DNA from: Daucus carota subsp. sativus
Lineage: Eukaryota; Streptophyta; Magnoliopsida; Apiales; Apiaceae
Reading direction: 5' to 3'
DNA: 64,000 nt
NCBI RefSeq assembly: GCF_001625215.2
Contig: NC_030383.2
Location: 16,535,197-16,599,196 of the forward strand
Shown: one piece after another, positions 11,148-36,983 of the stretch
Numbering within the stretch: position 1 is the first letter of the stretch
How the letters are laid out: every line of letters begins with the position of its first letter
The notes under the pieces: model-generated
Seen by the model: only the letters and a program-made list of their open reading frames with translations
Databases searched by the model: none
What the model was told of the DNA's origin: nothing
Program-made: the position numbers and the translations under genes

Positions 11148-11374
11148 CTCTCTCCGTCCCAATGAATTATATACATTGGGATCGGACACGGAGACCAAAA
11201 AAAATTTAAGAAATGAGTAAAATTAGGTGGAAAGTGGGTAAAGTGGTAGGACCCACAAAATTTTTAATACTAATAGATTTGAGATAGTGGAGTAAAGTAG
11301 TGGGTGTAATAGTGTTTTTATTATTATATAATGGAGATAATGGGAGGATGTAGTGGGTGTAGTATTGTTTTATA
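11148..11374. mobile_element. Stowaway MITE, left arm, interrupted by the Helitron
   Basis: Begins CTCTCTCCGTCCC after a TA dinucleotide (11146-11147) and resembles the intact copy at 4021, but stops without a right end at 11374, where the Helitron 3' terminus starts. The missing right arm is at 36888-36975. Together the arms total 315 bp, close to the 303 bp of the intact copy. Confidence 0.88.
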
Positions 11375-11406
11375 CTAGCCTATAACCCTTGCGAAGCACG
11401 GGCGAG
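11375..11406 (-). other. Helitron 3' terminus with hairpin and CTAG end
   Basis: Minus-strand reading gives GCCCGTGC-TTC-GCAAGGGT followed by TATAGG and CTAG, then the target T. This is the canonical 3' arrangement of Helitrons (hairpin, short spacer, CTRR). Confidence 0.85.
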
Positions 11407-11629
11407 TATATAATTCATAATTTATTATTTAAATTTTAACATCATTTTATTAATATATTAGTATTAATGAGTTGAATTTTAATTAAATTATATTAACAAA
11501 CCGATTATATGTTCTCATGAAAATTTAACCTTTACATTTTATTATCTATTTATAAATATATTATGTTATTAATATGTGATGATTATTATTTAATTAATTT
11601 TACATCAAATTTTTCATATTTTGAGGCCG

Positions 11630-11735
11630 TTTGGGTGAGTTTAAAATTAACGCTTCTTACTTATAAGTAAAAAAAAAGTGAAGTAGAAGTTAGTTAAGAC
11701 TTATAAGTGATTAAAGTGTTTGGAAAAAAAGTAGA
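11630..11735. mobile_element. Truncated hAT-like MITE fragment
   Basis: Starts GAGGCCGTTTGGGTGAG and shares the AAGTGTTTGGAAAA-type interior with the copy at 1934, then stops without a right end. It lies between two copies of a roughly 38-bp AT-rich direct repeat (about 11519-11557 and 11748-11786). Confidence 0.5.
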
Positions 11736-11880
11736 AATCGTGAAACAAAAATTTAACCTTTACATTTTATTATCTATTTATATCAACAAAATTAGTTTCA
11801 AAATACAAGTCTAAGAATGATATTGGCTTAGTTGGAAGTGAAAAGACTTGATTCTCAATTAGGAAACATTAACAATTTCC

Positions 11881-12630
11881 TTACATGAAATGATGAAACA
11901 GATGGCAGTATAGGATTGTTCTACCATATTTATCGAGAAAGATCTTGATGAAGGGAAGCTCATCAAGTACAGCATCAACTCCTCCGTTCTGGCATCCCTT
12001 GGAAAGAGCATCATGATATTGATCCACACTTGCATAAGACTTAATCCTCAATATGTTGAAGTCCAATCTCTTGATTAGTATCTCCTTCACGAAAGAACCA
12101 TCTTGGAAACCAATACAAAAAAGCTTGTTGTTGAATTTTGTAGCCGAAAAAAAGTCATATTTGAAGATAAGTTGGCTGTGTAACTCTGCATCACAATATA
12201 TGCCGTAAACAGCCAGATCACAAATACAAATTGAGACCATTTGCTAGTAACCAAATTCCCTGTCAAACACCAATTCAGACATTAGCAAGTAATAAACAAA
12301 CTGAGAAAGCAGAAAAGTTCATAGAAACTATTGAGTATAAAAACCTTACTTTCAGCAAAAACAAGAGAGCCAAATGGAAACCAAATCGCCTTTTCAAGTT
12401 TTCCCGGGTCATTTGCACGGTGCTCCAATATTAGAATCATCACACCCATAAAAAGACAAGAAAGTGCAACTGTTAGCCAGAGATATAAAGCAAACTGCTT
12501 CAAAAATATCGAAATATCACTGTCTCCACCATATTTTACTCGTCTAAGCATCACAACTTCTGATTCCAGATACGGTGTACTAAAGTCCACTCTTTGGGCA
12601 CGGTTAGGCAGTATTGTAACATCAGCTACC
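11881..12630 (-). pseudogene. GLR channel fragment: pore and second ligand-binding half
   Basis: Exon-like pieces encode the membrane and S2 part of a plant glutamate receptor-like channel. The first, 12630-12350, reads VADVTILPNRAQRVDFSTPY and continues through a transmembrane helix and the LEHR motif to a GTAAGG donor. The second, about 12258-11881, holds the family hallmark SYTANLSS and then, in another frame, GFQDGSFVKEIL and a DELPFIK motif. At least two indels are needed: a small deletion just after the acceptor, and one between SYTANL and GFQDGSFV. The C-terminal exon is missing. It is the 3' continuation of the GLR fragment at 31006-32400; the exon was cut at 12630 by the CACTA element. 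Not a functional channel. Confidence 0.88.
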
Positions 12631-12653
12631 CACTACTAGAAAAGCGGGCATTT

Positions 12654-13330
12654 CCGACCAAAATTTCCGACCGACCAAAGTGGTCGGAAAAAAAGCGGGC
12701 ATTTCCGACCGACTTACCGACCAAACACGATCGGTCGTAAAAAATGGCGTCATTTACGACCGCCATTACCGACCGCACCAAATCGGTCGGTTATAATGGG
12801 TGTGGGTCCCGCTCCCCAACGTCCGTCAGCTGACATGGACGCCACGTCGGTAAAACCGACCGACACATTTCCGACCGCCTGTGGTCATTTCCGACCACCT
12901 TGACTGGTTTTAAAATAATTGGTCAGCTTCTTACTCGTTGTCGCCTTGTGATTGGCTGAGTGGGGACGTGGTGGAGCCCAGCTTTATTTCCGACCGACGG
13001 CGGTCGGAAATGACTTGCTTCGTTTTCGACCGAATTAAAACCCTGGCGGTCGGTTTTGACTTCTTAGAAAAACAATAAATTCTATTCGATTATGTAAACT
13101 ATTAAAAAAAACTAAAAATATTGCACAACCAGAAAACCGACCACATATATTTCCGACCAAACTCATAATTTTAACACAGAAAACCGACCACATGCAACAC
13201 ATTTCCGACCAAACTCATAATTTTAACACAGAAAACCGTCCAAATTTAAACCATTTCCGACCAGTCACTCAAGTGCAGAAAACCGACCAATAAAATCATC
13301 ATTTCCGACCGATGTAAAACCTTGGCGGTC
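12654..13330. repeat. CACTA left subterminal repeat array
   Basis: Many copies of TTTCCGACC and GGTCGG in both orientations, the likely transposase-binding region of this CACTA family. Confidence 0.8.
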
Positions 13331-13732
13331 GGTTATGACTTGTGAGAAAAATAATAAAATTTTATTCGGCTAAGAAAACTATTAATAAAATTGAAAAATA
13401 TTGAAACTAGCTTTTAATCAGTTAATAATTTAATAAAAAATTATTCATCACTTAATATTTGATTTTTAAAATATTTTTATTTTCTTAACAAATTATAAAT
13501 ACTAACTAACTAATTTCAAATTAATTATTCAAACAACAGAAACATATAGAATCTTTGTGATATGCTCTAATTTAGGGTACTAATCATAATAGCAAAAGAA
13601 GAAAAATATAAAAAAATTATAAAGACGCTTTTCAGTTACGAATCATGCATTGTAGTGAATGTCGGAGTTCAGGGTTTGGATTTTATCAGAACTTATCCTA
13701 GGTTGTACACTTCCGAAATATTAATTTGTTTT

Positions 13733-14240
13733 TTAGGCGATCCAACCGTACGGATCGTAAATTAAGTACTCATTGTAGTTATATACCAAAAATCAAGTCA
13801 ATAGGATTTTATTCGTTGAGACATTATAATGAAAATATTATGTTATTCTTAAATATAGACGTAGGGTTATTTTTTTTATAAAAAAATAAATTTTTTTAGG
13901 CGATCCAACCGTACGGATCGTAAATTAAGTACTCATCGTAGTTATATACCAAAATTCAAGTTAATAGGATTTTATTTGTTGAAATATTATAACAAAAATA
14001 TTATGTTATTCTTAAATATAGACGTAGGGTTATTTTTTTACAAAAAAATAAATTTGTTTTTTAGACGATCCAACCGTACGGATCCTAAATTAAGTACTCA
14101 TCGTAGTTATATACCAAAAATCAATTCAATAGGATTTTATTTGTTAAGATATTATAGCGAAAATATTAGGTTATACTTAAATATGAACGTAGGGTTATTT
14201 TTTCTAAAAAAAATAAATAAATAATTTAAATGATCAAACT
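13733..14240. repeat. 163-bp minisatellite, about three and a fraction copies
   Basis: The unit starting GGCGATCCAACCGTACGGAT begins near 13736, 13899 and 14064, with a diverged fourth start near 14230. Copies carry few substitutions and small length changes in the T and A runs. Frames through it are not conserved as protein. Confidence 0.8.
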
Positions 14241-14404
14241 GTACGGATATGAATATAATTACTTAACTTATATTGGTCCTTAAAATTAATCATTTTAAAC
14301 ATTAGTTGAAGGAATATTATAATGAAAACTGATTATTTATTTATTTTATTTTGTAAAATAAAGGTAGGTATATATATAAGTCCCTTCAATCTGAACTTAA
14401 TGTT

Positions 14405-14480
14405 GTGGCTGGTCTGATGGTTGAGCACTGTACTTGGTACTCAGGGGTCGCGGGTTCGATTTCGCGTGATTTTTTATTTT
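14405..14480 (+). other. tRNA-like (SINE head-like) segment in CACTA
   Basis: An A-box-like TGGTTGAGCAC and a B-box-like GGTTCGATTTC are spaced as in tRNA genes, and a T-rich stretch (TTTTTTATTTTTT) follows. The cloverleaf does not fold cleanly by eye, so this is more likely a tRNA-derived SINE head than a working tRNA gene. Confidence 0.45.
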
Positions 14481-14810
14481 TTCGCTTTCCCCGGTTCTTT
14501 TTTCATGAAAAGTTAAAACCCCCGCCCAGCTTAAACGACGTCGTTTTGTGTGTATACGGCGTCGTTCTCTTTTATTTCGATTAAAACCCTCCTAACGTCT
14601 CGATCAGTTATCTCCCCCAGCTCTCTCCTCTCTCCGGTCTTGTTTTTCGCTTTCCCCGGTTCTTTTTTCATGAAAAGTTAAAACCCCCGCCCAGCTTAAA
14701 CGACGTCGTTTTGTGTGTATACGGCGTCGTTCTCTTTTATTTCGATTAAAACCCTCCTAACGTCTCGATCAGTTATCTCCCCCAGCTCTCTCCTCTCTCC
14801 GGTCTTGTCT
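14481..14810. repeat. Tandem direct duplication, 165-bp period
   Basis: The segment starting TTCGCTTTCCCCGGTTC at 14481 is repeated at 14646 almost unchanged, including the pair of ACGACGTCG-like and ACGGCGTCG-like blocks. It lies just upstream of the CT repeat and resembles a duplicated promoter or 5' leader. Confidence 0.8.
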
Positions 14811-14926
14811 CTCTCAACTCTCTCTCTCTCTCTCTCATCTCTGCCGGCTCTCTCTCTCTGTGTAAGCTCTCTCTCTGTAAGCTCTCTCTCCGCCTCTCTC
14901 TCTCTGTGTATCTCTCTCTCCCTGTA
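14810..14926. repeat. (CT)n-rich pyrimidine tract
   Basis: Long CTCTCT tract with GTAAG interruptions, typical of plant 5' UTRs. Overlapping Arg/Glu- or Ser/Leu-rich frames are by-products of the repeat. Confidence 0.85.
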
Positions 14927-15613
14927 CATTATATGCTTATTTTAGGGTTTATAATCTGGGTTATACTTTATACATGTGTTATAGTTTCTGCTCTATATGT
15001 ATAGTTTATGGTCGTATCTCTCTCATTACACTATGCTTATTTTAGGGTTTTGATTTTTTTTTTGGCTCTGATTTGTTGTAATTTGCTTTAATCTGGTTCC
15101 TATATGTTTATTTTTGCATTAATCTGGCTGAAGTTTAGTTGTTTTAGTTTTATGATCTGTTTATATGATTTTTTTGCTCTGTTTTTGTATCTGGCCTAAT
15201 CTGTCATGTGGTTGCTCTGTTTGTGTTTGTGTTTTAGTTGTTTTGTATGTTTGTGTGTTTGTGCAGTGATTTGTGGGTGTTTTGTACACGTAATTAATAT
15301 GGGTGTTTGGTTTAAAGTATTTGTGGGTGTTTTGTTATTGAATTTATGTTATTGAACAAAGGATTACAAGCTTATAACTAGCTAGGATTGCCGTGTGTTT
15401 AAAGTATTTGTGGTTGTTTGTGTTTGTGTACTTGATTTACAAGACTAGCTAGGATTGATGTTTCTGTATATTTCATTGACATTTATGTATAATCCTACAT
15501 ATTATCATCTATTTGTTATGCTAAGTGCTAATCATCAATTAATTAATTTATGTTTGATGTGCTTACAAGTCGCAACTTTATGTTTATGATAGCAGAGATT
15601 TTTGGCTAATGGG

Positions 15614-17381
15614 ATGCCTGCCAGGACTGGTGGAATATCATCCGGAACTTCTGTTTCTCAGTTGCTGTTAGACGGGGTTCTGAGAAAAACAAGGTCTGCG
15701 ACACTTTTATTCCTTTTCTCTTCCAGTTTTGAAATTTTCCCTTCAAGTTGTTGGTAGTATTTAAGATAAACATCTACGAATGGTAATTTTGTGGGCACTT
15801 GATTAATAGTTTGATGGCATTTTTCAATTTATGATTACTGTGGTGGTCTCGCTCTGTATAGAATATGTGATTGTTATAGATGATACTGTTGTTCCAGCAA
15901 TATATTATAGATGATACTGTTGTTCCAGCAATATATTATAGAGCAAAATTATAGTGAAGAACTAAGCTAGGAAGTGCCTTTATTGTTAGATATTTATATA
16001 TGTGCTACAGGGTGTTTATTTAATTTTATGTTGTTTCATATGTATGCTGCAATTTGGATTGTCACTTCACATCTATTTGAGGCTATTTTGCAACTTAATA
16101 TTACTTGGTGATCACATTTCTCATGGAAATGCTATTGCTTTCAATCACACTGTTGACAAGAAACTGTGTCGTGTGGTCTATATTTTTGATGGACCATGCA
16201 ACCTATTAGAAAGCAAGTTCTATTAAATTAAAAGGTCTTTTTTAATGCATTTCCACTATCTGGTAATTTAAATGCTCAGGTCTGCACGAGTGAAAGTATT
16301 GGATTACTGGTGATGCATTCCACTTGTTAACTATATGTCTCTGCTCACAGTATATTACAAGAGATACTGCAAAAAGAACTAGCAGCAAAGAGAAATCGGC
16401 ATATATCATTGTCCCCAAACGAAATGACCAACATATTATGGAAAAAGCTATTTCACATGCAGCATCAGGAACTAAAATTGTAGGAGAGGAAAGAGGTACG
16501 GCTCATTATCAAGCTCTTAATCATATTATGTTTCCAATAGTACTATTACTATATCCCTTTTGTTTCGCTTCCGATGACACTAATGTCGGTTCTTGAATAG
16601 AATAGACTGGAATTTAGGTTATTTTGTAAAAGATATAAGAATAGAACTCATACAAGACTAATTAGATACTAATGAAATATAATGAAATATAGAGTATTCT
16701 AATTAGCAGACTTCACTTCCTGTTGTTTCTGTGACTTTCTCTAAAAAGGATTTCTTTTAGGAAACTAAGAGAAATGATGTATGATGTTTATACTTTATGA
16801 ATTTCTGCTCCTAAATGCTTCCTGGTTTATTGTGAAAGCTAGATGCTGTGTATACAGATATGTCAAGTAATGCAATGAATAGTTACTAGGCAATACATAT
16901 ATAGTAATTAGGTTGTTTTTTTTTGTAGGCATAATATTTTGTAACATTGTGTATCTTCTTCTCTCGGCTGTTCAGTCATTATCTTCAGCTGCTCCTTACT
17001 AGGGTATACAGTAATGTTTGATTGGAAACGAAATTTGCTATGTGAGAAGTTATCTTCATTTGACATGTCCATGGATCACATGGTAAATAATTAAAGAAAT
17101 CTGAAGGATTTGCTAGTCAACTAAATACATTAGGACAGAATTTGGCTGGCCTTCTATTTTGCAACAACACAAAATGTTAATGATATTCTTTCTAATTCTC
17201 TATTGTTATAATGTCTGAGAGTTAAGGCTTTTGTTGTATATCTTTGTGATTATATGCAAGCATATAAATTTTCTAATTATTGCAGGCAATTGCGGAGGCG
17301 ACTAAGGATGTCACCGATGGTGAGAGTTCGAAGAATGACATTGATGGGGATGATGATGGTGATGGAGATGAGGAAGATTGA
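15614..17381 (+). CDS. Unrecognised spliced-gene-like unit inside CACTA
   Basis: Three exon-like pieces with plausible splice signals follow the CT-rich leader. The first begins with an ATG at 15614 (MPARTGGISSGT) and ends near 15693 at AAG|GTCTGC. The second starts at 16351 after CTGCTCACAG and reads as a basic, Lys-rich peptide to about 16492. The third starts at 17286 after TTGCAG and ends in a run of Asp, Glu and Gly with a stop at 17381. The phases of the three best frames do not join cleanly with the splice sites I can pick, so the gene is either misread by me or broken. I do not recognise the protein. It may be a captured host gene or an accessory CACTA product. Confidence 0.3.
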
Positions 17382-17724
17382 AATGAAGCTACCTAGCTAG
17401 ATGCATTATTGGTAGGGATGCTGATTTTGTTAAAACATTGCTTTTGGCTTTTGATTGTTTAGCTGCAATGTATATGATTGTTGGCTTTTGACTGATTGTT
17501 CAGCTGTAACATTTATGTCGTACTGAATTATATAATTGTTCTTTTGTAAATATATGAATGCTTGTTGGCTTTTAAATTATGTCATACTGAATTTTAATGG
17601 ATATGATTCTTGATTTTGGGTTTGGAATTGAATATTGTATGTGCATTGTTGGTTTGGTAAAATAACAGGGATATGGTATAGTTTACAATGAAAACACTAC
17701 ATTTTTTTTTGAAATTTTCTCCCC

Positions 17725-17945
17725 AGAAAACCGACCAAATTTGCTCATTTCCGACCAAGAATGGTAAAAAAGAACCAAGAAAACCGACTAGATGTATACA
17801 TTTCCGACCAAATTCATATCCTAAAACCCAGAAAACCGACCACTAAAGCTAAAACCGACCAGTTGTGGCAAGCAATTTGCCCAGAAAACCGACCAAAGCA
17901 AGGAGGTCGGTAATGACCATGCGGTCGTAAATGACTTTGGGTGGT
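17725..17945. repeat. CACTA right subterminal repeat array
   Basis: Repeated AAAACCGACCA and TTTCCGACCA motifs in the opposite overall arrangement to the left array. The terminal repeat expected shortly after this array is missing. Confidence 0.75.
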
Positions 17946-17985
17946 CGGTTTTAGCCCAGAAGCTCCCAAAATATATAGAAATATA

Positions 17986-19396
17986 TAGAAAATATTCTAA
18001 GTGTAGTGAACTTGCGCTTGATACAGTAGAGAGCTCCACTGTTATCTCTCCTCCCTCACATGCAAACCCTAGGTTGCCCTAGACACCTGACATCATCACA
18101 TGCATGCATAATATATATAATATAATATATTATGTTGTTATTATATTAATAAATAAAAATATATATAAATATACACACACATATATATATTTTATTTATA
18201 TGAACATATAATAATATATGTACATATATTTAAATATATTCTCATATATTTAAATATATATAATATATAATTATATGTAAATACAAATGTAATATATATA
18301 TAAATATATATAGAGATATATATAGTTATTTATAAATATAAATATAAACATAAATATATATAAAGAAAAGTATATATAAATATATACATATATATAATAT
18401 TTATATAAACATATAGTAACATATATATACACATATATTTAAATATATTCTCATATATTTAAATATATATAATATACATATAACTATGTGTAAATATAAA
18501 TATAAATATATATATAAAGATATATATAACTCTCTCTAAATATAGATATATTTATGCACGTAATATAATATATATATACACTTAATTATATAATTGCTTA
18601 TGTAAAATATAAATACATATACTATATACATATATATTTATTTAAATATATATACATATAAATATACATATACATATGTTTAAAAAACATATATACATAT
18701 ATATTATATATATTATATTTAATTAAATATACATATATACATATATAATTATATTTGTACATATACAAATATATAAGTGCATACATATATAAAATGTCAC
18801 TGATATGGCTTTCTGTGGAAGCTTTGACATATGGCATTTGAGCAGTAAGCATTGGCATAGCTGGCATTTGGCTTGGCTTGACTTGGCTTTGGAACAAATG
18901 ACTTGATATGACTGAATCAATTCTTCGATCGATAAATACTTTGCAAAGCTCCGTACGTGCTGACGCTTAGTGCACTGGTCTGGTTCACAAGCGACTAACA
19001 CTGAAGTTAAACATTGTACCGTCTTTGTCAGCAAACATTGATCAGTCGGTTCCGGGTTAGTTTATGCTTCAGTTTGTTGATTATAAATAACCAACCAAGA
19101 TATATAGAAATATCTTGCTTCAGGGGTTGCACTGAAATCTTTCGAGTACTTGGACAACATCTTCATTGCTTCAACAATCTTGAATACTTCAATCTTTATT
19201 CTTCACTGAGGCATGAACATATTAATGAACTTCTTCCAGTGAACTTATTCCTTCAAGACTGTAGATGGCTTCTTCAACCTTTGTCTTCGTATCATCCGAT
19301 TCCGGTGCAGGCGTAGTGTTATTTACTTGTCCTGTTCTACTGTTAAGTTATCATCCCTATGTAACAGATAGGGTTGTCTTTACATTTAGACTTACA
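17986..19396 (-). repeat. Truncated 3' LTR of the SIRE-like element
   Basis: Matches 29586-30996 almost base for base, including the AT-rich block. About 947 bp of the LTR (equivalent to 28639-29585) is missing at the junction with CACTA. Confidence 0.9.
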
Positions 19397-19412
19397 ATCT
19401 CCCCCTATTTGT
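19397..19412 (-). other. Polypurine tract next to the 3' LTR
   Basis: The minus strand reads AAATAGGGGGAGAT directly before the LTR start TGTAAGTC, the position of the plus-strand primer in reverse transcription. Confidence 0.75.
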
Positions 19413-19929
19413 TTGTTAACCACAACAAGCAAATCCTCTGGAGGATAACTCAACTAACACTAGAAAAAGTAAAGTCCTGGACTAGTAAATAATGCTACAA
19501 AGTTTCTGGATCATATAATACATCTCCAGATTTCATGAATAGAAACAACAGATGTGCATATCACCTTTATTTCTCTGGTCCTTTCTTACCTGCCAGATAA
19601 TCCTCATAGTCTGTCTTGAAGAGAATTCAAAACATTCCATTATGCAAAGAACAATCAGCAGCTTCTTTAAAATTTTCAGTGGTAATGAATAAGTTCCTGT
19701 CTACCACTTACTGAAGAATAAATGTATCACCGTGATTCCTCAAAAGTAAAGAAACAAGTCTTTGCTTATGCTTCTCCCTCTGACAAATATAGTGGTGAAC
19801 CAATACCACTACTTCCTAGGAATCATACCACGTACCACCTGAATAAGGATACAACACAGTGGTGAGGTGTACATGAGTTGTTATTACTTCTCCTCCCATT
19901 ACCTTGATCAGGTACCCCTTGGTGATAAG

Positions 19930-20125
19930 TAGCTATCTCCCCTTAGATGAAAGATCAATCCTCCTCCTTAGTTGAAAGAAGAATCTCCCCCTCAGTAGTA
20001 CACAGCTAAAGAGTAGTTCAATCCCCCTTAGTTGTAGACAACAAAAGAAAGCTAACTTACTTTTTCTTCCCCCTTTCATATATTCTCCCCCTAAATATAT
20101 TCTCCCCCTTAGTTGTGGAATCCTC
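19930..20125 (-). repeat. Cluster of polypurine-tract-like motifs
   Basis: On the minus strand, blocks such as AAGGGGGAGA, GAGGGGGAGA, AAGGGGGATT and TAGGGGGAGA occur at least seven times within 200 bp. They resemble the terminal polypurine tract at 19397. Extra tracts of this kind are known from SIRE/Maximus relatives. Confidence 0.75.
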
Positions 20126-20629
20126 CGAGGATATGTGGTATCAAATAGGTCAAAGAAAGTGTACAATACTTCCTGTACTAAAAGATAATCTCCCCATAAA
20201 GAATAAACAACGCTAAAGCTGGGGTTGAAGAAAGATCTCAGAAGAAGGGTTTACTTTGATTGGGTTGGTCCTTATCCTGAAAGAATAGGTTCCAAACGGA
20301 AAAGTAATGAGTAAAATCTGACAATCGTGTCCCTTTGGTGTTACCAAATGATAAAGCTTCCCGATATTGTTAGGTCGCAATACCAATTGTTAGATCCCTG
20401 GTATGGTTTCGATAACATCTCAACATGGCTCCAACGGCAGTCAGTCGAACATTTCAGTGTAAGTATCCACTTTGCCTTTAGGTATAAATTTGGTAATCAG
20501 TGGTTATCTCACTAAATGTTCTGCAGGTGTATCACTCGACACTCAAATTTCTCTCGGTTTTTGGGTAAGGGTGTCAATCACGAGTTCTGTAAGTGTATCT
20601 CTCCACACAAATACTGAGCTTCCAAAATG

Positions 20630-21375
20630 CTGAGTACCTGCAAGAAAATCACCTTAGCCACCCTTAAAGGGGGTCACCGGTGGTGCAATGGGAGTTCGTA
20701 ATTCCCAGTCCCTATAGACTCATCAGATAAATCCGAATCATGGTCCACAAGTTGCCAACCACTAAGTGGCTTATCCAATTAAGGATCCAGAGTTGTTTGC
20801 TCTGGGAGGTTAGACAAAGGCTTAATTATGGCAAAGGCCTAAGTCCCCCTCAATGTCTGTGAAGACACTTGATTCAAGAGAATCATCAACCATAAGTTCA
20901 CAACATGAAATGGAATGAACCGTAGTTGCTTCCGTCAATTCTTTCAACAGCTTGTGAGCTTTCAATACCAATTATTATTATATGTACCTCACAAGTGTTT
21001 CACTCTTCTCAAAATCCTATGTGTTTGCACTCACTCATGCTCACATATTTCTCATTTTGATATCTCACTAGTTCTTCTCAGAATCTCACCAAGTGTTTAA
21101 CTCTCAGTGTTTGGCTCACAGTGTTTCTCTCAGCACTCAAAGTATGGTCTTTTGTACCTGCATGAGAAAATCACCATAGCCCCTTCAAGAGAGGTCACTG
21201 GCGGTGCAATGGGGTTTCGTAAATCCCCGATCCTCAACTGACTCATCAATAAATTGACTCATAGTCAGAGAGTTGCCGATCTCCTATAAATAGGAAATCC
21301 ATTCCGATTGGATCCAGATCTGTTCTTATCTGGGGAGGGAGACGAGAATCCTGAAGATTTGGCAATTGAGATCCT
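20630..21375. repeat. Diverged tandem duplication before the 3' LTR
   Basis: Two segments, about 20630-20840 and 21150-21370, share GTACCTGCA, AAAATCACC, TAGCC, GTCAC, GGTGCAATGGG, ACTCATCA and GGATCCAGA in the same order. Similarity is partial, indicating an old duplication of roughly 200 bp with a 520-bp period. Confidence 0.65.
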
Positions 21376-24300: not shown

Positions 24301-24479
24301 CTGAACTTGAAGATTCTGTTTCCATCATCTTCATAACCTTCTCCTTTGTAATAACTCTAAGCAACCAAATTGGCTTGTCCCTCGTAACAGAGCCAAAAAC
24401 ATCCAGTTGGAATCTGAATACCCGACAAGTACTAAGTACTGAATTGTCTTTAGGTCAGGGTATCAGAATCCGCACAATC
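21376..24479 (-). other. SIRE-like interior, decayed, no domain recognised
   Basis: AT-rich sequence with only short open frames on either strand. In a minus-oriented Copia element this is where the end of pol and an extra 3' open frame would lie, but I cannot read a conserved motif with confidence. Confidence 0.4.
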
Positions 24480-25330: not shown

Positions 25331-27830
25331 TACCTCATAATCTTCATCCATAATGAATTCCAAATGAGGTAGTCCTCTCACCAAATCTCTTCTTACTAAT
25401 AAAAAGAGCTCCTTGTTTTGACATACAAGTTTGAGAGCTTCAAGTGCCATAGCTAATACTCATCCGATGAAGCTTCACTATCAAAACAGTTCACTCCATC
25501 TTCAGTTGAAGTTACATATTAGCTACGAGCAAATTCAAATCCTTCCTGATTTGAGATAAAACACTATTCCATGAACTGACATACTGTCCTTTGTCAGAGA
25601 ACAGTCTGATACTAGGAATTTGTGTGCTTTGACTCTTTCAAGAAAGATATGCTTCCATGATGACATTCCAGGAAAACAGGCATGTCCTGCAAGAGAATCT
25701 TTGTTGTCATCTTTCAAAGATTATTGACGGAACTGCTCACATGATCACATTTGCTAACAGGATACTTTTGGTGAATATATGATTTCAGCTACTCAGCAAA
25801 CAGAGTGCACCAAAAATCATATGGAACATATGTAACCTGCAATCACAAATGGAAAGAGTTCTATGGTCCCCAATCATAACTGGGTCCGGATGGATTAGAG
25901 ATTTTTCTTTAACAATGGTAACAACAGAAGCAACCTTAACATGCTAATTCTTATCTAGACATTGCCCTAATGTGATTCTCAAACATGCTTTTCTAAAATC
26001 AATGCAATTACAAAGACATGCATTCATGACATGAAAATAAGCAGACATATATGATGTTGAATACACATGGCAAACAATCAAAGATAAGACAAGAGCAAGA
26101 CAGGCAGTTATGCAATTCAGAAGATTTAATACTCTCTACTTAAACCAATTAACACAAGTGCAACAGGTAGCAAGTAGAATTACACATATTCAATAATCTT
26201 CGAAAAGCATAAGGATCATAGACAAATTAATAATCACATTATCAATCCAAACTAATCCCACTCCGTTGTTATATGGCATTATACTATCTCTATTACCTAA
26301 GTCAGTTTTAGATCTAACATGAAGTTCTAAAAGTTCTACTGACACAAGGTAAACATTCCATCATAGAACAAATAAATTCCTTAACAAACAATTCAGATTA
26401 GATAAGCAAATCTAATTGTACTAGGGAATCTGAAAGTAAATGTTTTAACAAAGTTATACATGCTAGGATCATAACCCCTAAAACTAAGAGTTGTTTTCCA
26501 AAGGAAAGCTTCTAATCTCACCATTGCAAATAATCAAATCCTAAATATTCATACACATGCTAAGAATCTGCTAAAGACACATGCACAAGATTATCATCAA
26601 TCCTAGTTACCAGAATGTGCTCTAGCATACTAGTTCAACATTATCTATTGTGATGCTATCATGCTTGTGCTTGTGTGTTAAACAATTCTACTCGAAGATT
26701 TATAACATGCTTTGAATATAAAGAAATAAGTATTGCATAGTTAGAAAGAATTCATACCTGAGAAGTGCGAGGTGAGTCATCTTCAGAGAATGCTAGGATA
26801 GCCAGATAACCATAATCATCCTTCTCATCAGCAATTGATCCATCTCACACCTTTCCTAAAATAGCATAAGAACTTGTTATGATGCTTCTTTCAAAACATC
26901 CACTTGAATTTCAGACAAGCCCTATCATCCTTGTTTGTCGAGGCTTCAATATATATAGCAACCCTTCTTTGCTAAAGATACCAAACAATATTGTGTGTAC
27001 TGACCAACTCAGTTTTCAAACAACCTGTCGAACTGAACCCCGAAGAGTCTCCACTTGAAACCAATGGATTCCATCTGAATCTCACATGACTAAACCTCTC
27101 AGACAGTGTTATGCTAATCCTTGAAGTTCTGTCCTCACATTCTTCAAAAGTGTTAACTTTCGTCGACTTGAGCTTCGTCAAATTCAGCAGTTACAAACTC
27201 TTCTGTTCAATCCTAAGGTTCTGACATAAATGCACGAAACTGATTTGGTGCGGTAGTAACTCGATAATTATATCCTTAAACCTCCACAGTTCTCTGTCTT
27301 TGGTTCAGTTGATTCTGGATGGATTTAGCATTGATACAATTCATTGTGTAATTGTATTTCCCTGAATCACTGAGTTAGATTGAAATCCCTTGAAGATTCG
27401 TTCGTAAAAACTTCTCTTTTCCTACTACCAGTGGTACCATTCAAAGTTCATATTCCGAGCCCTGTGAAGATGCACTCAACACATAAAGCCAGTTCCCATC
27501 CTGATCTGGTGATCTGATAATCAAGTAGGAGTAATTACTCAGATCAAGGCCTGAAGTACCTTCTTCAAAATCCACTGTCAGTAGTACCAAATTAGTCTTC
27601 AATAGAATCTTCTTTGAATCACAATCATCTTTGTCGAACATAGAAAACTGCTTCCAATAATCCTTTGAGTAATCAATTGGATTGGGTCATCAATGTACTT
27701 CCATTACCGGTTCTGAGAATCTGGTATTTGAAAACCCGGTGTTTGTCTTGTAATCTGTCAGCCTGATCTGTCTCAACTAAATGTCAGTCTGATTTGTCTT
27801 GGAGTAGAATAATTAAAAAGGTTACGGGAC
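25331..27830 (-). other. SIRE-like interior, presumptive gag region, decayed
   Basis: Several short minus-strand frames (for example 25535-25717 and 27441-27641) could be gag or protease remnants by position, but no zinc knuckle or protease motif is visible. Confidence 0.4.
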
Positions 27831-28470
27831 ACTTGATTATTTAAACTAAGTTTAAATTATAAAGAAAATAAATTCAAAAAAAAAAATTTTAAAAGATAAA
27901 AGAAAATAAAGTATAAAATAAACTTAATCAAATCTATAAAATAAATTTAATTATATTTAAAAAATAAATTCAAATAAATTCATAATAAACTGAATAAGTT
28001 TAGAATAAATTTATTTCAAATTCATTTAGTAAATATATTAAAATTTATTGTATAAATTTAATTTTTGAAAATATTCAAGTGTCTCGTCTCCAATTAAATC
28101 ATAACTTTCAAAACAAAATAAATTGAACCCTTGAACTTGAACTTATATCCATAATCAGTTAAATCCTCTTAAATTTATATTCTAGATTTTAACTTAAATT
28201 TAAATCATAAACTATACAAATTTAAATAATAAATTTATAAAAATTTATGATAAACTTGATAAAGTCTAAGAGTAAACTTTACAAGTCTAAAATAAATTTA
28301 AACAAATTTTATAATTGAATTTAGTAAAGTTTATAAAGTAAATTTAATTAAGTTTATAAGATAAATTTAATTAATTCATGATAAACTCAATTAATAAGTT
28401 TAAAATAAATTAAGTCAAATTTATAAAATAAACTTATTAAAATTTAAAGTATAAATTTATAAGTCCCGGT
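27830..28470. repeat. AT-rich low-complexity block in the leader
   Basis: Degenerate repeats of AAATTTA, AATAAATTT and similar words fill the region just inside the primer-binding site. This is the untranslated leader of the element. Confidence 0.7.
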
Positions 28471-28624
28471 CCAAAGTTCAGTATCCGACAGATAATCCTT
28501 GCTTAGGCCTACGGACAAATTCAGCAACACAAACCGGAAGAACCTTTCCCCTAATCAAATATCAAAAGCTAGGTTCTTGATTTTCCGTACGATAAGGATC
28601 CTGATTTGTATATCAATCAGCCAA

Positions 28625-28636
28625 GCTCTGATACCA
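28625..28636 (-). other. Primer-binding site (initiator Met tRNA)
   Basis: TGGTATCAGAGC on the minus strand, two bases after the LTR end, complementary to the 3' end of plant initiator methionine tRNA. Confidence 0.9.
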
Positions 28637-28638
28637 AT

Positions 28639-29110
28639 TGTTAGGTCCAAAGTATCGTAGAAGGGGGGGTTGAATACGATACTCACTACAATTTAAAATT
28701 CTTTCGAATCTTGCGGATAAATAAATTGCAGTCCTGTAATGGGTTTCGTGTTTCGGATATTTATTGGGTCGGTTTCTGAGGATATGAAAATATTAAACCA
28801 ACACACAATATTTTCCAAGGTATATCTGTATATTGATAAATACCTCGAAGGGTGCTATAAATCCAAACCCGAAGGTTGGCTACAATGGCTATTACTACTT
28901 ACACTCACAAACCCTAGCTTCTAAATATATATATATATATAATACAAAACTAAGCTAGAGTTTATTTGTGTGTAGTAGTGTGCAAGGCACAAAGCCATTC
29001 CACCATAAAGGTGGTGGAGAGTGTTACAAATGAGAACAAAATCCATGGGTATTTATAGGCTTTTCACTAACTAACCCTAGTTAAGGCAGGTGATCCAAGT
29101 TGCGCCAAAT

Positions 29111-29179
<69 letters not shown>

Positions 29180-30996
29180 AACTTGCGCCAATGAAGAGTT
29201 TACTGTGTCCCGTGTTTGATCACTTAGAATTTATTCTAAGTGTTCAAACTTGCGCCACTGTTGTATATAGGAGAAGTCAAACCTTGCGCTTGTCAAATGT
29301 TGCGCTCATGTAGTTTTTCCTGTGCCACACTGTTATCACTCTAGGTTAAAACTTAACCAACTTGCGCCTGGGATGAGTTGGCGCTAGAGAAGAGCCTCCT
29401 GTACTCACTCTTCTCTCTCCTGGTTAACATGAAAGTTGCGCTACAGAGTGTGCAAGAGATACTTGGTGACTTAGAGATATTCTAAGTCATTCTTGCGCCT
29501 TGTACAGTGTAACTTCCCCTTGTTATCTCTCCTCGGACTTCTTCCAGGTCAAATGTTGCGCCTTTGATTTCACTGTGAAGACACTTAGAAAATATTCTAA
29601 GTGTAGTGAACTTGCGCTTGATACAGTAGAGAGCTCCACTGTTATCTCTCCTCCCTCACATGCAAACCCTAGGTTGCCCTAGACACCTGACATCATCACA
29701 TGCATGCATAATATATATAATATAATATATTATGTTGTTATTATATTAATAAATAAAAATATATATAAATATACACACACATATATATATTTTATTTATA
29801 TGAACATATAATAATATATGTACATATATTTAAATATATTCTCATATATTTAAATATATATAATATATAATTATATGTAAATACAAATGTAATATATATA
29901 TAAATATATATAGAGATATATATAGTTATTTATAAATATAAATATAAACATAAATATATATAAAGAAAAGTATATATAAATATATACATATATATAATAT
30001 TTATATAAACATATAGTAACATATATATACACATATATTTAAATATATTCTCATATATTTAAATATATATAATATACATATAACTATGTGTAAATATAAA
30101 TATAAATATATATATAAAGATATATATAACTCTCTCTAAATATAGATATATTTATGCACGTAATATAATATATATATACACTTAATTATATAATTGCTTA
30201 TGTAAAATATAAATACATATACTATATACATATATATTTATTTAAATATATATACATATAAATATACATATACATATGTTTAAAAAACATATATACATAT
30301 ATATTATATATATTATATTTAATTAAATATACATATATACATATATAATTATATTTGTACATATACAAATATATAAGTGCATACATATATAAAATGTCAC
30401 TGATATGGCTTTCTGTGGAAGCTTTGACATATGGCATTTGAGCAGTAAGCATTGGCATAGCTGGCATTTGGCTTGGCTTGACTTGGCTTTGGAACAAATG
30501 ACTTGATATGACTGAATCAATTCTTCGATCGATAAATACTTTGCAAAGCTCCGTACGTGCTGACGCTTAGTGCACTGGTCTGGTTCACAAGCGACTAACA
30601 CTGAAGTTAAACATTGTACCGTCTTTGTCAGCAAACATTGATCAGTCGGTTCCGGGTTAGTTTATGCTTCAGTTTGTTGATTATAAATAACCAACCAAGA
30701 TATATAGAAATATCTTGCTTCAGGGGTTGCACTGAAATCTTTCGAGTACTTGGACAACATCTTCATTGCTTCAACAATCTTGAATACTTCAATCTTTATT
30801 CTTCACTGAGGCATGAACATATTAATGAACTTCTTCCAGTGAACTTATTCCTTCAAGACTGTAGATGGCTTCTTCAACCTTTGTCTTCGTATCATCCGAT
30901 TCCGGTGCAGGCGTAGTGTTATTTACTTGTCCTGTTCTACTGTTGAGTTATCATCCCTATGTAACAGATAGGGTTGTCTTTACATTTAGACTTACA
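28639..30996 (-). repeat. Complete 5' LTR of the SIRE-like element
   Basis: 2358 bp, starting TGTTAGGTCC and ending GACTTACA on the plus strand. It holds a long (TA)n run, about 700 bp of AT-rich repeats (29705-30385) and roughly ten short GCGCAAG-type repeats between 29095 and 29625. Confidence 0.88.
29114..29177. repeat. (TA)n microsatellite
   Basis: About 31 uninterrupted TA units inside the LTR; the equivalent part of the other LTR is deleted. Confidence 0.95.
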
Positions 30997-31005
30997 ATTA
31001 GTTAC

Positions 31006-32400
31006 CTTTTCTTCAAGCTGTGTAAGAAGATCATCGTAACTCCCAGCGCTTCCTGTAGTCAGGTTCCAATAAGGGATATATTGAGGATTCTCAATTTTGA
31101 ATGGCAAATTTAATAATAATTCTCGGAATACATCTGCACAAAAACCGGTGATATTATACTCCGTAGTATTTTGAAACTGCTGAAGTTTCGCAAATTCAGT
31201 AAAACCATCTTTCACTGGAACCCCCACTTTCAATCTCCTCCCTGATGTGGGTACTGCCCAATACATCGGCTTGACAGTTGAATCTCCAGGCCAAATGATG
31301 CTTCTCAAAACATTTACAGAAGTTGAATATGTCGAAGATATGTTCAATGAATCTGGATCTCTCGACAATCCTCTGTCCGAGTTCCAATAGCCTATCGATT
31401 GCTCTCCATTCCCTATTACATTTAGTATTTCAAAATCTGATATCTGCAACTGGCGATTTACCAGACTGAATTCTCCGCTTAAGCCCTTGAACTTAGTGCG
31501 CAAGAGTTCTTTCAAAAGTGTTGGGCCTAATTCAGAGATGCCTAAATTTTCTTTATGGTCTGCATTATGATCTGGTGTCACCCTCTCTACTGCCATAGCT
31601 AATGCCCAAACTGCATCATATGCCCATGATCCAAAAATATTAAGCTCAGCTTTAGGCTTCGTGCATTGCAATTCCCTTCCCCACCTCATTTTAAAAGTTG
31701 TAACCTTTGTTGACTTGGGTACATAAGGCCTTGTACCCAGAACACCTTGCATTGCATCTCTAACTGTAGCATCCATAAAAGCAAACGTATTCGACAAACC
31801 ATCAGTAGTTAACCATGCATATCCTTCACTCATCATTCCTGCAGCGTCTGCCTGAAGAAAGAATCATGATCCAAGGGGGGGAGCCATATGAACCAAGAAC
31901 ACCCTGCTTGAAGCTGATTTCAACTTGAGAAGTTCTTCTTCTATCTGTAAATCATTAGCAGAAATAGAAATAGCACTTGACATAGAAATCTGAATACCGG
32001 CCTCCCTCATTGCATCACTTAAATATTGAATCAATCCATCTTGGTAGCCAGTGTCTTCGTAGACAAAGATAACTTCCTTCCATCCAAATCCTTTAAATAT
32101 GGAAGCAATAGCTTTCAGTTGAGAAGAATCAGCCCCTGCCATCTGAATGAAGTAAGGGCTCCGCACATGTGATAGATAAGAGCTTGTTGCCGAAAAGGAG
32201 ACAATAGGAACTTGAGATTTTGCTCCAAGCTCAACAACAAAATTTGTTTCAGGAGTAGTTTGGGGTCCAAGGATGACTCGAATTTCATTCTTTAGTAATT
32301 CTTGAGCTTGCACATTTCTTATAAGGCTTCCGAGAGGAAAGACCCAATTCATGCATAGCAAATCTGCAGCACAATCATAGAGATGAGGAGGTTTTTCAAT
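31006..32400 (-). pseudogene. GLR channel fragment: amino-terminal domain and S1
   Basis: Minus-strand coding sequence covers the periplasmic-binding-like amino-terminal domain and the start of the S1 ligand-binding half of a plant glutamate receptor-like channel. Motifs include GPQTTPETNFV, VPIVSFSATSSYLS, FGWKEVIFVYEDTGYQDGL, RVFLVHMAPPLGS and, after the break, GMMSEGYAWLTTDGLSN, then YWAVPTSG and ITGFCADVF. A TGA stop at 31866-31864 falls where family members have Arg in GSRFF, consistent with a CGA to TGA change; the frame otherwise continues. The sequence ends at a GTAACT donor (31006) in an intron that the SIRE-like element entered. The signal peptide and first part of the domain are missing; the left limit near 32400 is approximate. 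It continues in the fragment at 11881-12630. Confidence 0.9.
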
Positions 32401-33601
32401 TACTCTGCCAGAAATAGAAATGTGATTAATATACAAATTCTGTTTGAGAAATAAAAGGATAATTACTGCAAAATTGTTCTTCAAATGTCAGCCAATTCGA
32501 AGTTCATTTCCCCGGATATAATACCACCTTGGGAAAAAATTCGATTAACCTTCCCCGAAAAAGAACTATACAGTAATCATTAATCAATAATAGTCCAAAG
32601 ATTATAATCATTGTAAACAAACATTACCCAAGAATCTGAACATTAATAATAAAAATAGCTCAATTATCAGTTTGATACTATCAATAATTAAATTAAACAT
32701 ACAATATACTGGAGTTAGACAAACCCCAGAAAAGCACACATTTCTAATTTGAACAATAGATAGGTAGCAGATATAACAGAGATATAGAGAGCTTGTAAGT
32801 AGAGATGGGGTGGAGGAGTTGACCTGAGGATTTGATTGGGTCTCTTTTGTGAGAAGCTAGAAAGATGCAAATCAGTATGATACCTTCTCTTGTGACGCCA
32901 AAAATTCGAATAATAGCAGCAGGATCAGAAGAATTAGGCAACAACTCTTTGTGACTCTCTCCGATCACATAATCAATTTCCAGCTACTGGAATACTTGCA
33001 ACACAGTTCATAAATTAATAGCAGCTGAACAAATCATTCACTCATAGATGTTCGCAAAGTGTGAGATATATCCAATATTAATTATAAAAATATATATATG
33101 AAATGCCTTGAAAATCAAAATGATATAACACCAAAGTAGTTTGACAAATCAATCACCAGCTTATAAAAATTACAATATCCAATACAACAAAAAAATCACA
33201 AAATACCTCAAAGACGTAACAGAACACAAAATCTCTAAAACATAGCACTGTACATTAGGGGGTAACTACACCTTAGCCTCATATTACATATGCAATTTGA
33301 CCCCATCGACAATTATGTTAGCTACGCCACTGCTTGAAAGGGGGGAATATATTTGAGTAACCCACAACACTGGCATAGATTATTATTATGGTTCAGTTTC
33401 AGCCTAATATGCATTGCAAAATGTATAATATAAAATTTTACAAGAATTATAAAATTCAAAGGATAAGTAGCTTCAGTGAATGAAAGTGATTCATATCAGC
33501 AATATAGGGTCTACATTCCTTACATATAACCATGTAGGAAAAAAATTCATAATCTGTGCCTGCAATGAATATTCAGGTAAACAGAGAACATAAAAACGTA
33601 C
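32401..33601. other. Helitron interior between GLR and kelch fragments
   Basis: AT-rich sequence with intron-like composition. No exon recognised, although a 74-codon minus-strand frame at 32744-32968 exists. It includes the first copy of a 108-bp direct repeat (33136-33243). Confidence 0.45.
33136..33243. repeat. 108-bp direct repeat, copy 1
   Basis: Identical by eye to 35081-35188, starting GTAGTTTGACAAATCAATC and ending CTCTAAAACAT. It flanks the kelch fragment region. Confidence 0.9.
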
Positions 33602-34507
33602 CATTTGATGACCTGAGCGAGGACTAGGACATCCCTTATAATTTAGTTGTTCCCATTGATTGGTTTTCAAGTCCAACATCCAGAAGTCCTGGAAGAAACT
33701 AAGTCCAAAAGCAAAATTCCAAACACAAAAACAATGTATAAGTGCAGATCTGCAGAAAGAAAGCAATTTATGTAATAGGTAATACAGTTTCTACCTTGTA
33801 GTGGTGAAAACGCTCTTGATTAGGAGAGGTAAATTCACCACCTATGAACCAACAAACCAGAATCCCATATCAATCCACAGGAAAGTGCGAGAACGTTTAT
33901 TTATAGACTTGTGCATGCCCATTAGCCAAAGAGAGATAAATACATTATTGTATGCATGCATGCATTGTACATATGACTGTAAATAGCTATTTTACCATAT
34001 ATATAAAGATAGTTCTTCCAAGCAACAGCCTGATGAGCACTACGAGGAGGTGGGCTGTTAGGGCTAGATATTAATTTCCACTCATTCTTGTCTACATCGT
34101 AGCGATAAAGATCACCATATACATATGTCTGCAGTAACCCAATATCATGTATTCAGTTCCAAACAAGACAAATTCATCAACACTCCAACTAACCTGTATA
34201 TTGGCATATCACACTCGAAACATTTTTTATTTATGCTTACCTTGTTGCCGTTGTAAAATTCGCCACCGTATAATATCAATTCCGTCTCTTTTAAAGGATT
34301 AATACATAACTACACGAAAACACCAAAATTAGTACTGAAGCCGCAAACAAAAGACGTTATCAAACACATCAAATCAATGAAAAACAGACTCCATTTCATG
34401 CTTAAAACTACTAATTACCGAGCAGTTGAATCGAGGAGACTGCGCCGGCACACATTATCTTCAACATGAACTTCTTTCTTCTTCGATTCCTCTTTTTGTA
34501 TATTCAA
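33602..34507 (-). pseudogene. KLHDC4-like kelch-repeat gene fragment
   Basis: Five consecutive exons join with correct GT-AG sites and phases: 34507-34419, 34309-34241, 34128-33996, 33841-33795 and 33688-33602. They encode IQKEESKKKEVHVEDNV, INPLKETELILYGGEFYNG, VYGDLYRYDVDKNEWKL, SSPNSPPPRSAHQAVAWKN, GGEFTSPNQERFHHYK and DFWMLDLKTNQWEQLN, which follow the order of plant Kelch domain-containing protein 4 homologues. The first exon has a 2-bp TG insertion after the HVEDNV codons that shifts the frame. The N-terminal exon with the Lys-rich start and all exons after the second kelch repeats are missing. It is a captured fragment of the Helitron, not a gene. Confidence 0.92.
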
Positions 34508-36029
34508 CTGCTCAGGCATAACCAAAGACACACATAAACACAACAAATTCAAGCAAAAACATAACGCACACATAATTGTATATTGAAAGAGTAACAAGAT
34601 GCTAGAAACTTGATACTTCATAACTGACTAAACACATTTGACTACGAACTGAAATGTAATCTCCCTCTCCCTCTCTCAACTGAACCTTACTCATAAAAAC
34701 ACAATTTCAGCAAATAAGGAAAGCTCAGAAACATAGCAAACACTTACAATACGAAAGGATGAAGCTCGTGTAAAGCAAAACCAGCTAGAACTCCATGATC
34801 GGCAGAATTGTTCCTGGTTCCTATTTATCAATTAGCAATTACTCTTATAGGCAGAAGGTGGAGCATTATTTTTTTGCTAATATACTATATCTTCTTATTT
34901 GCTGGTATATATAGACATTGAAGGATCTAAGTGATCTGAAGGCTAAGGTTTCTAGTGCTTAAGCTGCTGTCATACTGTTAGGAAGGAGTATAATGGTGAA
35001 AGTAAAAAGCTAAAAGAATTGCAGGCTCAGTTCATGTTTCCGAAGATGGAATCCTATATTATACTACTAAATACTAATATGTAGTTTGACAAATCAATCA
35101 CCAGCTTATAAAAATTACAATATCCAATACAACAAAAAAATCACAAAATACCTCAAAGACGTAACAGAACACAAAATCTCTAAAACATCAAAACTCTGGA
35201 ATTGATAGTAACAAATGTTACAAAACAAATACAGCTATGAACCACAAAAAGTCTCAAATGTGACAATACTTCACGAAAAATCTAAGAATTTAAACACGTA
35301 CCCTGAACTACATCCCAAATCATGACAATACATCACGAAAAATGTAAAATTCACTTAACACATACACTTACTATAAAACTACAAAATGCCTCTAATCTAA
35401 ATTCCCATAAAACAGTGACATTAACCAAATGCCTCGAAAATCGTGCATCAAGCAAAGTAAACACTCACATAAATTAAGAGTCTTACCAATATAATAAGTG
35501 AATTACTTGAACATCAGCACAACAAAGATGAAATTATCAATCCTTATAAGCAACTAAATTACTGAACTTAAGATAAATAAACAATGAATAACAAAGAAAG
35601 CTACTTACCCACTTGATATATTCTAACGACGCAAGCGACCTAATTCATAATTAACCCATAAATAAATTTAGATATTGTATACCAAGAGATACGACATATA
35701 TTTTTTGTAGTGTCCTAGCAATGACAGTTTCGATAAATCTTCATGTATATCATTCAAGTGTCATTGATACATTATCAAAATTAAGACTTTCAGCATTCAA
35801 GCAGTTGACTTCCCTAGAAGAGCTAGAATGACATTCTAGAGCAAATAAACAGGCCCCATTCCATATTTCAGATTTTACCAATCAAACATTAACACAATTG
35901 TATGGGTCATCTTATCTTTAAGTGTATCCATAAGGTACTTCTGTTACCGGTTTAGCATATAAAACTATCAACAAATTTTTAATTGCATTAAAGATTAAAA
36001 TTCAACAATTAGCTGTTATTATAACAAAC
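34508..36029. other. Helitron interior between kelch and RabGAP fragments
   Basis: AT-rich, no exon recognised. Holds the second copy of the 108-bp repeat at 35081-35188. Confidence 0.45.
35081..35188. repeat. 108-bp direct repeat, copy 2
   Basis: Second copy of the repeat at 33136-33243, 1945 bp away in the same orientation. Confidence 0.9.
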
Positions 36030-36456
36030 CTGACAAGATGAACATGTTTCTTTATTGTAGCAAGAAAATCTTGAACTCCTCCATTATAACAATAAAGAGG
36101 AGGAAAAGCTAAATCTGCCAAAGGAAAATAACAAACAAGAAAATGAAGCAAACAGAGAGTATTTGCATAAAAAATATTAATATCCTAATATGATTGCACG
36201 TACAGAATCAATGTAAAAACAACACCCGATGACTAAACAACAATTACGTATTGCCACCCAAGGGTAGGAGTGTGCCTGTAAATCGACCTAATCTCTGTAA
36301 AAGGCACTGCCCATATAGTATAAAGATTCCTGTCAATAAACAAAGCTAACTATCAATACAAAATTCACAGATTATCCAGCAAATACCTCAATTGAAATCT
36401 TACCATTTTCAGGAAACCCTCGCATTTGAGCTCTGTCCTTTGTACGGAATCCATGT
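36030..36456 (-). pseudogene. TBC-type RabGAP (DUF3548 region) gene fragment
   Basis: Three exons, 36456-36404, 36329-36226 and 36114-36030, splice in phase and read WIPYKGQSSNARVS, NLYTIWAVPFTEIRSIYRHT, TLGWQYVIVV and LAFPPLYCYNGGVQDFLATI. This is the conserved N-terminal PH-like region (DUF3548) of plant Rab GTPase-activating proteins with a TBC catalytic domain, related to yeast Gyp7 and TBC1D15. Two in-frame stops are visible: TGA at the end of the first exon, and TAG in the second exon where the family has Leu before SSG. The TBC domain itself is absent. Captured fragment of the Helitron, nearest to its 5' end. Confidence 0.88.
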
Positions 36457-36789
36457 CTACAAAAAAATACACAACGTCCAACTCAAAATACAAGAAGATT
36501 AATTAGCTAACCACTTACACATACACACAAAATAACAGATATATACCATGAACAACGAAGTTCCTTGTTTAATCAGCTTTAATCGACCAGTAATCCTTTC
36601 AGACGCATGAATTAAGTAGTGTTCCTGAGAGATGGAATGAAAAGTAGCACAGGAGCTCGGCCAGATGAAGAGAGAGACATCGGGCTAATTAGCGGACTGC
36701 TATGTGTAGTATTTGGTTTGTTAGCAAAGTCGATCTTTGTTGAGAGAGAGTGTCCTAATAGGAGAGGTTTTTAAACAGTAGTACAACGC

Positions 36790-36887
36790 TGAGACGAAAC
36801 CAAAAAAGTGAGACGAAACCAAAAAACGTGAATAAAAAGTAGGACTACAAATTATCCCTATGTTGGCTTATTATAGTATAGTATAGA
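36790..36887 (-). other. Helitron 5' terminal region
   Basis: Minus strand begins TCTATACTATACTATAATAAG at 36887 and continues with GCCAACATAGGGATAATTTG and TAGTCC. The TC terminus preceded by A fits Helitron insertion. A close relative of this end lies at 46760-46855. Confidence 0.85.
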
Positions 36888-36975
36888 TTATAAAAAGTTG
36901 CTATTTTGGGAATGTATAGAAATGATGGGACATCCCAAAAAGGAAACTGTATATAATTGATTGGGACGGAGGGAG
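36888..36975. mobile_element. Stowaway MITE, right arm
   Basis: Ends GGGACGGAGGGAG followed by TA (36976-36977) and contains GATGGGACATCCCAAAAAGG like the intact copy at 4021-4323. It is the missing half of the MITE at 11148-11374. Confidence 0.88.
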
Positions 36976-36983
36976 TATGGTTA

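Follow-up and report, generated by a model that had tools for sequence, protein, structure and literature searches.

Nested gains of gene pieces in a carrot Helitron, probably by internal repair, including a kelch piece that appears to come from another Helitron

Helitrons carrying pieces of several genes, and the stepwise capture of such pieces, are already known; how Helitrons capture genes is an unsettled question. According to the available parts of the reports cited here, multi-gene Helitrons of maize captured their pieces stepwise and have related copies without single pieces (PMC3288121), and insect Hel1 Helitrons have internal gains that were explained as filler DNA captured during break repair inside the element, with junction matches of 2-13 bp at each source (PMC6544945). 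For rice Helitrons, recombination between elements was suggested as a further way in which captured pieces may spread (PMC2575219), and tandem duplications in rice, enriched at 50-200 bp, were ascribed to patch repair at adjacent nicks (PMC7971508). Two Helitron-type elements at the Brassica SP11/SCR locus have similar ends and a similar small captured piece (PMC5030654). Here we describe a Helitron of 25.5 kb in a 64,000-nucleotide stretch of the carrot genome (Daucus carota subsp. sativus, C3:16535197-16599196; hereafter the window) that carries pieces of six genes. The element is very probably a non-autonomous Helitron that gained these pieces in several steps, by internal repair. Coordinates are 1-based on the window, and the genome searched comprised 441,086,747 bases in 11 contigs.

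As far as the available parts of those reports go, the carrot element resembles the maize Helitrons in that several gene pieces were added in turn and relatives lack single ones, and differs from them in having five traced sources, two pieces inside earlier pieces and one apparently from another Helitron (PMC3288121). Internal gains attributed to break repair within the element are common to it and Hel1, whereas its junction overlaps are 0-3 bp by eye rather than 2-13 bp and at one gain 108 bp of the acceptor are duplicated (PMC6544945). That duplication falls in the size class described for rice, where the duplicates are adjacent; the carrot copies are separated by 1837 bp of foreign DNA (PMC7971508). 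As in the Brassica elements (PMC5030654), carrot elements with similar ends share a captured piece, and, unlike the suggestion made for rice (PMC2575219), the carrot transfer is traced and has almost no border homology. On the passing of cargo between Helitrons, the available parts of PMC4778049, PMC5148889, PMC5030654 and PMC2575219 contain nothing beyond the rice suggestion and the shared Brassica piece already mentioned. A limited literature search, which does not show absence from print, found no paper on gene capture by carrot Helitrons. Of greatest interest in the present analysis is the second-hand step that could be traced.

Ends, target site and relatives of the element

The element runs on the minus strand from 36887 to 11375. 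Its 5' end, TCTATACTATACTATAATAAG, begins with TC at 36887 and is preceded by A (the longer terminal stretch, likewise preceded by A, reads TCTATACTATACTATAATAAGCC). The 3' end consists of the hairpin CCCGTGCTTCGCAAGGG at 11402-11386 and CTAG at 11378-11375, followed by T. The hairpin has a 7-bp stem with one mismatch and lies 7 nt ahead of CTAG; in three sibling elements the stem is perfect (CCCGTGC/GCACGGG). TC at the 5' end and CTAG, fitting CTRR, at the 3' end are as expected of a Helitron, in which the hairpin should stand about 10 nt from the 3' end, and by eye terminal inverted repeats are absent and the two ends are unlike each other. The insertion site lies between an A and a T, and the target is not duplicated, as the flanks (Table 1) rejoin to a full-length miniature inverted-repeat transposable element (MITE) of 322 bp, which we take to be Stowaway-like. 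Among the 76 genome matches listed for the rejoined MITE (40 of 3115 candidates scored), 42 extend from query base 1-10 to 321-322 with 85-94% identity, the other 34 being short and confined to the terminal repeats. A diverged unbroken copy (67.8% identity) is also present within the window at 4016-4325.

In the three minus-strand frames of 11375-17985 and 30999-36887, Pfam gave no Rep or helicase match with an E-value of 0.01 or less, which indicates that the element is non-autonomous. Since the Helitron_like_N domain has at least 168 matches in the genome, many in open frames, enzymes for movement may be present, and the mobilising enzyme would have been supplied by a resident Helitron that carries a replication gene. 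At the level of sequence, the results confirm a non-autonomous Helitron that split a Stowaway-like MITE.

A search with the 3'-terminal 626 bp, in which 40 of 3835 candidates were scored, gave 53 genome matches. Counting that of the window, 38 of them start no more than 5 bases from the end; the inner part of this query also matched at three places, on C1, C4 and C7. Siblings on C4 (31255243-31262681) and C7 (2749264-2771302) have both ends, with A before TC and T after CTAG, and in that on C1 (39943943-39950793) the 3' end is good, the 5' end having decayed and lost its TC. Over 6.3 kb the C1 and C4 siblings share 98.95% identity; their flanks differ. Window and C4 elements are 93-98% identical in shared segments longer than 150 bp except for the first 215 bp, where identity is 80%. 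A previous reading made from the window's letters only (the sequence-only reading) had recognised the Helitron from these same ends and from the MITE rejoined across them, and both claims hold; it had named a lack of other elements with these ends as grounds for giving up the view, and the siblings do share them. Extra internal copies of the 5' end were seen in the C4 element (6127-6199) and in the C7 element (17001 and 21042), and are perhaps Helitrons nested in Helitrons.

Six gene pieces, their sources and the order of their gain

The pieces are from RabGAP, DNA polymerase delta, kelch, importin-alpha-like, gyrase A and GLR genes, all in sense orientation to the Helitron (Table 1); the two-sided chance of six pieces alike in orientation, calculated by hand, is 2/64. 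The sequence-only reading rightly placed RabGAP, kelch and GLR pieces in one orientation, all on the minus strand, and miscounted in stopping at three genes, the polymerase delta, importin-alpha-like and gyrase A pieces having been overlooked. Also missed were the second-hand nature of the kelch piece and the two nested transposons that account for ~18.4 of the 25.5 kb. The search for parent genes that it proposed succeeded for five of the six pieces; for GLR, only relatives at 82% identity or less were found. Sources or nearest genes are scattered over four chromosomes (C1, C2, C3 and C5), for which reason a chromosomal gene cluster was rejected.

The RabGAP alignment is firm to 35643, the remainder to ~35608 matching the donor locus discontinuously; Pfam gave no match in the piece or in a 4-kb donor stretch, and RabGAP-TBC exons lie 6-7 kb downstream of the donor on the same strand (C3:6291223-6292128). 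Similarly, an Arm_3 domain lies 8 kb downstream of the importin-alpha-like donor on the same strand, with no Pfam match on the locus itself, and PDB searches with one frame of that locus and with one of 30999-36887 returned nothing informative. Both names are our assumption, supported by these downstream exons; the second piece is presumably importin-alpha-9. The polymerase donor is a native gene (L049, C1:19.354 Mb, 89%) with nearby exons matching structures named DNA polymerase delta catalytic subunit and also PF03104; a PDB search with the 34-residue polymerase piece was uninformative. This locus had been considered as a sibling Helitron and was rejected as being the native gene. PF00521 exons surround the gyrase A donor at C2:43.02 Mb, for which reason that locus was rejected as a GLR-free sibling; no family end was found around the match within 20 kb, apart from a weak 5'-like match and a weak 3'-like match, both upstream. 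The kelch piece matches Kelch_3 at 8.6e-5, barely above the Pfam cut-off. Its native gene (L041) is at C5:2.99 Mb, with two further relatives at C7:39.77-39.78 Mb (73-82%). Since none of the three tandem GLR genes at C3:56655893-56672020 exceeds 82% identity to the captured copy, the source of the GLR piece is taken, from sequence comparison, to be absent from this assembly or lost.

The positions of the pieces indicate the order in which they were gained. The GLR piece lies inside the gyrase A piece, of which ~220 bp are missing at that place, the two flanking parts being separated by 220 bp in the native gene; the polymerase piece likewise encloses the kelch piece (35080-33244). At an E-value of 10 or less the genome gave 20 matches to the polymerase exon, counting that of the window. 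Polymerase genes account for two of these loci, both on C1 (19.354 and 19.337 Mb), and at least five others (L042, L043, L047/L048, L051 and L052) adjoin matches to the 5' region of this Helitron, indicating that the polymerase piece is old. RabGAP and GLR pieces are present in the window element and in its C1 and C4 siblings; the C7 sibling has no match to GLR, kelch or RabGAP, and kelch is found only in the window element among these four. RabGAP is absent from the same internal site in copies at C6:20.29, C1:20.69, C9:7.556 and C5:29.68 Mb. Foreign pieces are accordingly found inside the element together with relatives in which the site is unfilled, the pattern by which filler-DNA capture is recognised. 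Among the matches listed, the chimeric junctions are confined to the window element and its C1 and C4 siblings; the same fragments side by side at a locus without Helitron ends, which would have spoken against the sequence-only reading, were not among them. These relationships indicate that capture is stepwise and nested. A recognised model of Helitron capture, in the available part of PMC6544945, is end bypass, in which rolling-circle copying past the 3' end would have picked up each gene piece. It is very unlikely here, given that the pieces are internal and inside one another and that relatives share the 3' or 5' end yet have the internal site unfilled.

The cargo has decayed. The main GLR exon has one stop and a later GLR frameshift was seen by eye; with the 1-bp frameshift of RabGAP and the 2-bp frameshift of kelch, the stops or frameshifts claimed earlier for these three pieces are borne out. 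The retention of introns and splice sites described in the sequence-only reading was examined by eye at some positions; that reading also proposed that a product, if made, might work as RNA or short peptides. The ratio of non-synonymous to synonymous change (dN/dS) in GLR was 0.35 between the window copy and the nearest gene. For the window copy it was 0.74 with C4 and 0.66 with C1, on 23 non-synonymous and 9-10 synonymous changes and with 3-4 stop-containing codons excluded; between C4 and C1 it was 1.16, on 5 changes only. These values are read as constraint before capture and near-neutral change after it. It might be proposed that the load is a working chimeric gene, a regulatory RNA or a peptide source under selection, consistent with the sense orientation of six of six pieces, the long frame kept by the main GLR exon but for its one stop, and the window ratios with C4 and C1 being below 1. 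Against this stand the stops, the frameshifts and two large insertions; the change counts with C4 and C1 are close to the neutral expectation, the ratio between C4 and C1 does not fall below 1, albeit on so few changes, and the lower value against the gene includes time as a functional gene. Selection on the load is hence given a small probability, and the Helitron load most likely makes no working protein.

The kelch piece and its 108-bp flanking repeats

The whole kelch piece is also present at C3:5389046-5390879 (L039) and C3:50976572-50978403 (L040), the former within a complete Helitron (C3:5387299-5393676), and these two loci are ~98.7% identical in the 1.4-1.5 kb compared on either side of kelch. 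The window piece differs from L039 at 10 of 1834 columns (4 gap columns) and from L040 at 9 of 1832 (6 gap columns), an identity of 99.2-99.5%, compared with 51 differences in 1460 columns (96.5%) to the native gene. The three element copies have in common a 2-bp frameshift, absent from the native gene, and a 370-bp 5' part without match in that gene, some of which occurs also at C1:38289247-38289445, 4.4 kb from a Helitron replication domain. Both loci lose similarity to the window at the two kelch edges. Since beyond 33243 they run on with native kelch sequence for 294 bp (~95%), where the window stops, the direction of transfer was towards the window element. The kelch piece thus appears to be second-hand, from another Helitron, as judged by this shared history.

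In the window the piece is flanked by exact 108-bp copies of acceptor sequence. Comparison of the acceptor site at seven loci revealed a single, uninterrupted copy in the native polymerase gene (L049) and in the kelch-free loci L047/L048 (overlapping) and L054. Homology between donor and acceptor at the kelch borders is 0 and 1 bp by eye. The kelch evidence favours templated break repair over end bypass. Delivery of the piece by homologous recombination or gene conversion between two Helitrons would be helped by donor and recipient being related families with similar ends; near-absence of junction homology and the exact acceptor duplication leave it improbable. Independent capture by both lineages from the same gene, for which a native gene does exist, is least credible of all in view of the shared frameshift, the shared unmatched 5' part and an identity of 99.5% between elements against 96.5% to the gene. 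Tentatively, and with somewhat less than even probability, captured pieces may form a shared pool, Helitrons swapping cargo via staggered-nick repair that duplicates ~100 bp of acceptor; if so, gene chimeras would grow without new contact with source genes.

Proposed mechanism and the surroundings of the element

Internal, nested gains with unfilled relatives fit break repair with copied filler DNA. Each gain would start from a break inside the element, the broken end copying other DNA and rejoining with little or no matching sequence. Such repair would sometimes lose DNA, as at GLR (~220 bp), and would once have duplicated it, as at kelch, where staggered nicks would give the 108-bp repeat; the staggered-nick step is possible, as are other repair routes. 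A long terminal repeat (LTR) element and a CACTA-like element later broke the Helitron. The ends, target, siblings, sources or nearest genes, nesting order and shared kelch history are read from the DNA itself.

Several points weigh against gain by internal repair. Transposition, repair and expression were not observed. C1 and C4 carry RabGAP at another internal position than the window element, which requires at least one rearrangement in addition; in C4 it starts ~37 bp earlier in the gene, and the 220 bp ahead of it (L014, C4 element 1271-1490) matched none of the loci compared. For L040 the match seen is an upstream 5' end rather than a whole element. Three of the seven acceptor loci (L042, L043 and L050) are without part of the 5' side, so that these three do not show the unfilled kelch site, and a clean acceptor duplication accompanies one gain only. 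Finally, the direct GLR source is missing from the assembly, the nearest gene being at 82%.

The history of this Helitron is unusually readable. With its nested steps, its known sources, relatives whose sites are unfilled and a single clean repair scar, which bears on how Helitrons collect genes, the carrot family makes rival models testable by sequence across carrot accessions. The locus is also a warning for annotation, as it holds look-alike exons of six real genes and gene finders could call genes here.

The nested LTR and CACTA-like elements split the GLR piece, and ~160 bp between them are missing relative to C4. The strand of the LTR element was inferred by eye from a polypurine-like tract. 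Its LTRs differ at 1 of 1413 positions and it has no stop-to-stop open reading frame of 120 residues or more; an intact element was ruled out by truncation of the left LTR. Sequence matching it (93-97%) is also found between the ends of the C7 sibling. The other element, presumably CACTA by our assumption, has 165-bp tandem repeats at 13716-14218 and 14478-14808, the second pair being 100% identical.

Table 1. Positions of the element, its gene pieces, nested transposons and target in the window
Feature	Position	Strand	Basis
Left part of split, presumably Stowaway-like, MITE (target)	11144..11374	.	rejoined-flank genome search
Helitron 3' region	11375..11798	-	hairpin 11402-11386, CTAG 11378-11375, then T
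Gyrase A piece, second part	11799..11914	-	donor C2:43021696-43021811, 97%
GLR piece, channel region	11918..12630	-	Lig_chan 1.1e-5, under Pfam cut-off
Nested CACTA-like element (presumed)	12631..17985	.	CACTACTAGAAAA at 12631, the one end that remains
Nested LTR element without long open reading frames	17986..30998	-	LTRs 99.93% identical; left LTR truncated
GLR piece, ligand-binding exon	30999..32308	-	ANF_receptor 1.4e-65
Gyrase A piece, first part	32307..32460	-	donor C2:43021322-43021475, 98%
Importin-alpha-like piece (end of first coding exon and intron, by eye)	32461..32860	-	donor C3:6016224-6016622(-), 94%
DNA polymerase delta piece, rest of intron and exon (LEIDYVIGE...)	32858..33243	-	native gene L049
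108-bp direct repeat, copy 2	33136..33243	-	exact copy
Kelch piece, shared with another Helitron	33244..35080	-	native-gene match from 34710 on; 35080-34711 unmatched
108-bp direct repeat, copy 1 (acceptor duplication)	35081..35188	-	exact copy
DNA polymerase delta piece, intron part	35081..35446	-	native gene L049
Stretch between RabGAP and polymerase pieces, common to related elements	35447..35607	-	
RabGAP piece	35608..36606	-	donor C3:6298188-6299152(-), 90%
Helitron 5' end and 5' subterminal region	36607..36887	-	TC at 36887; matched in copies without RabGAP
Right part of split MITE	36888..36978	.	rejoined-flank genome search

Elsewhere in the window, an LTR pair at 6122-11068 (791 bp, 99.87% identical) ends just ahead of the split MITE and spans G-rich tandem repeats at 7152-7333. 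A near-palindrome of 877 columns, 91% complementary, lies at 42209-43083. A second LTR pair at 46337-51288 (249 bp, 99.2%) has the primer-site-like sequence TGGTATCAGAGC (minus strand) at 51039, and within its span a stretch at 46789-46859 resembles the Helitron 5' end (87%).

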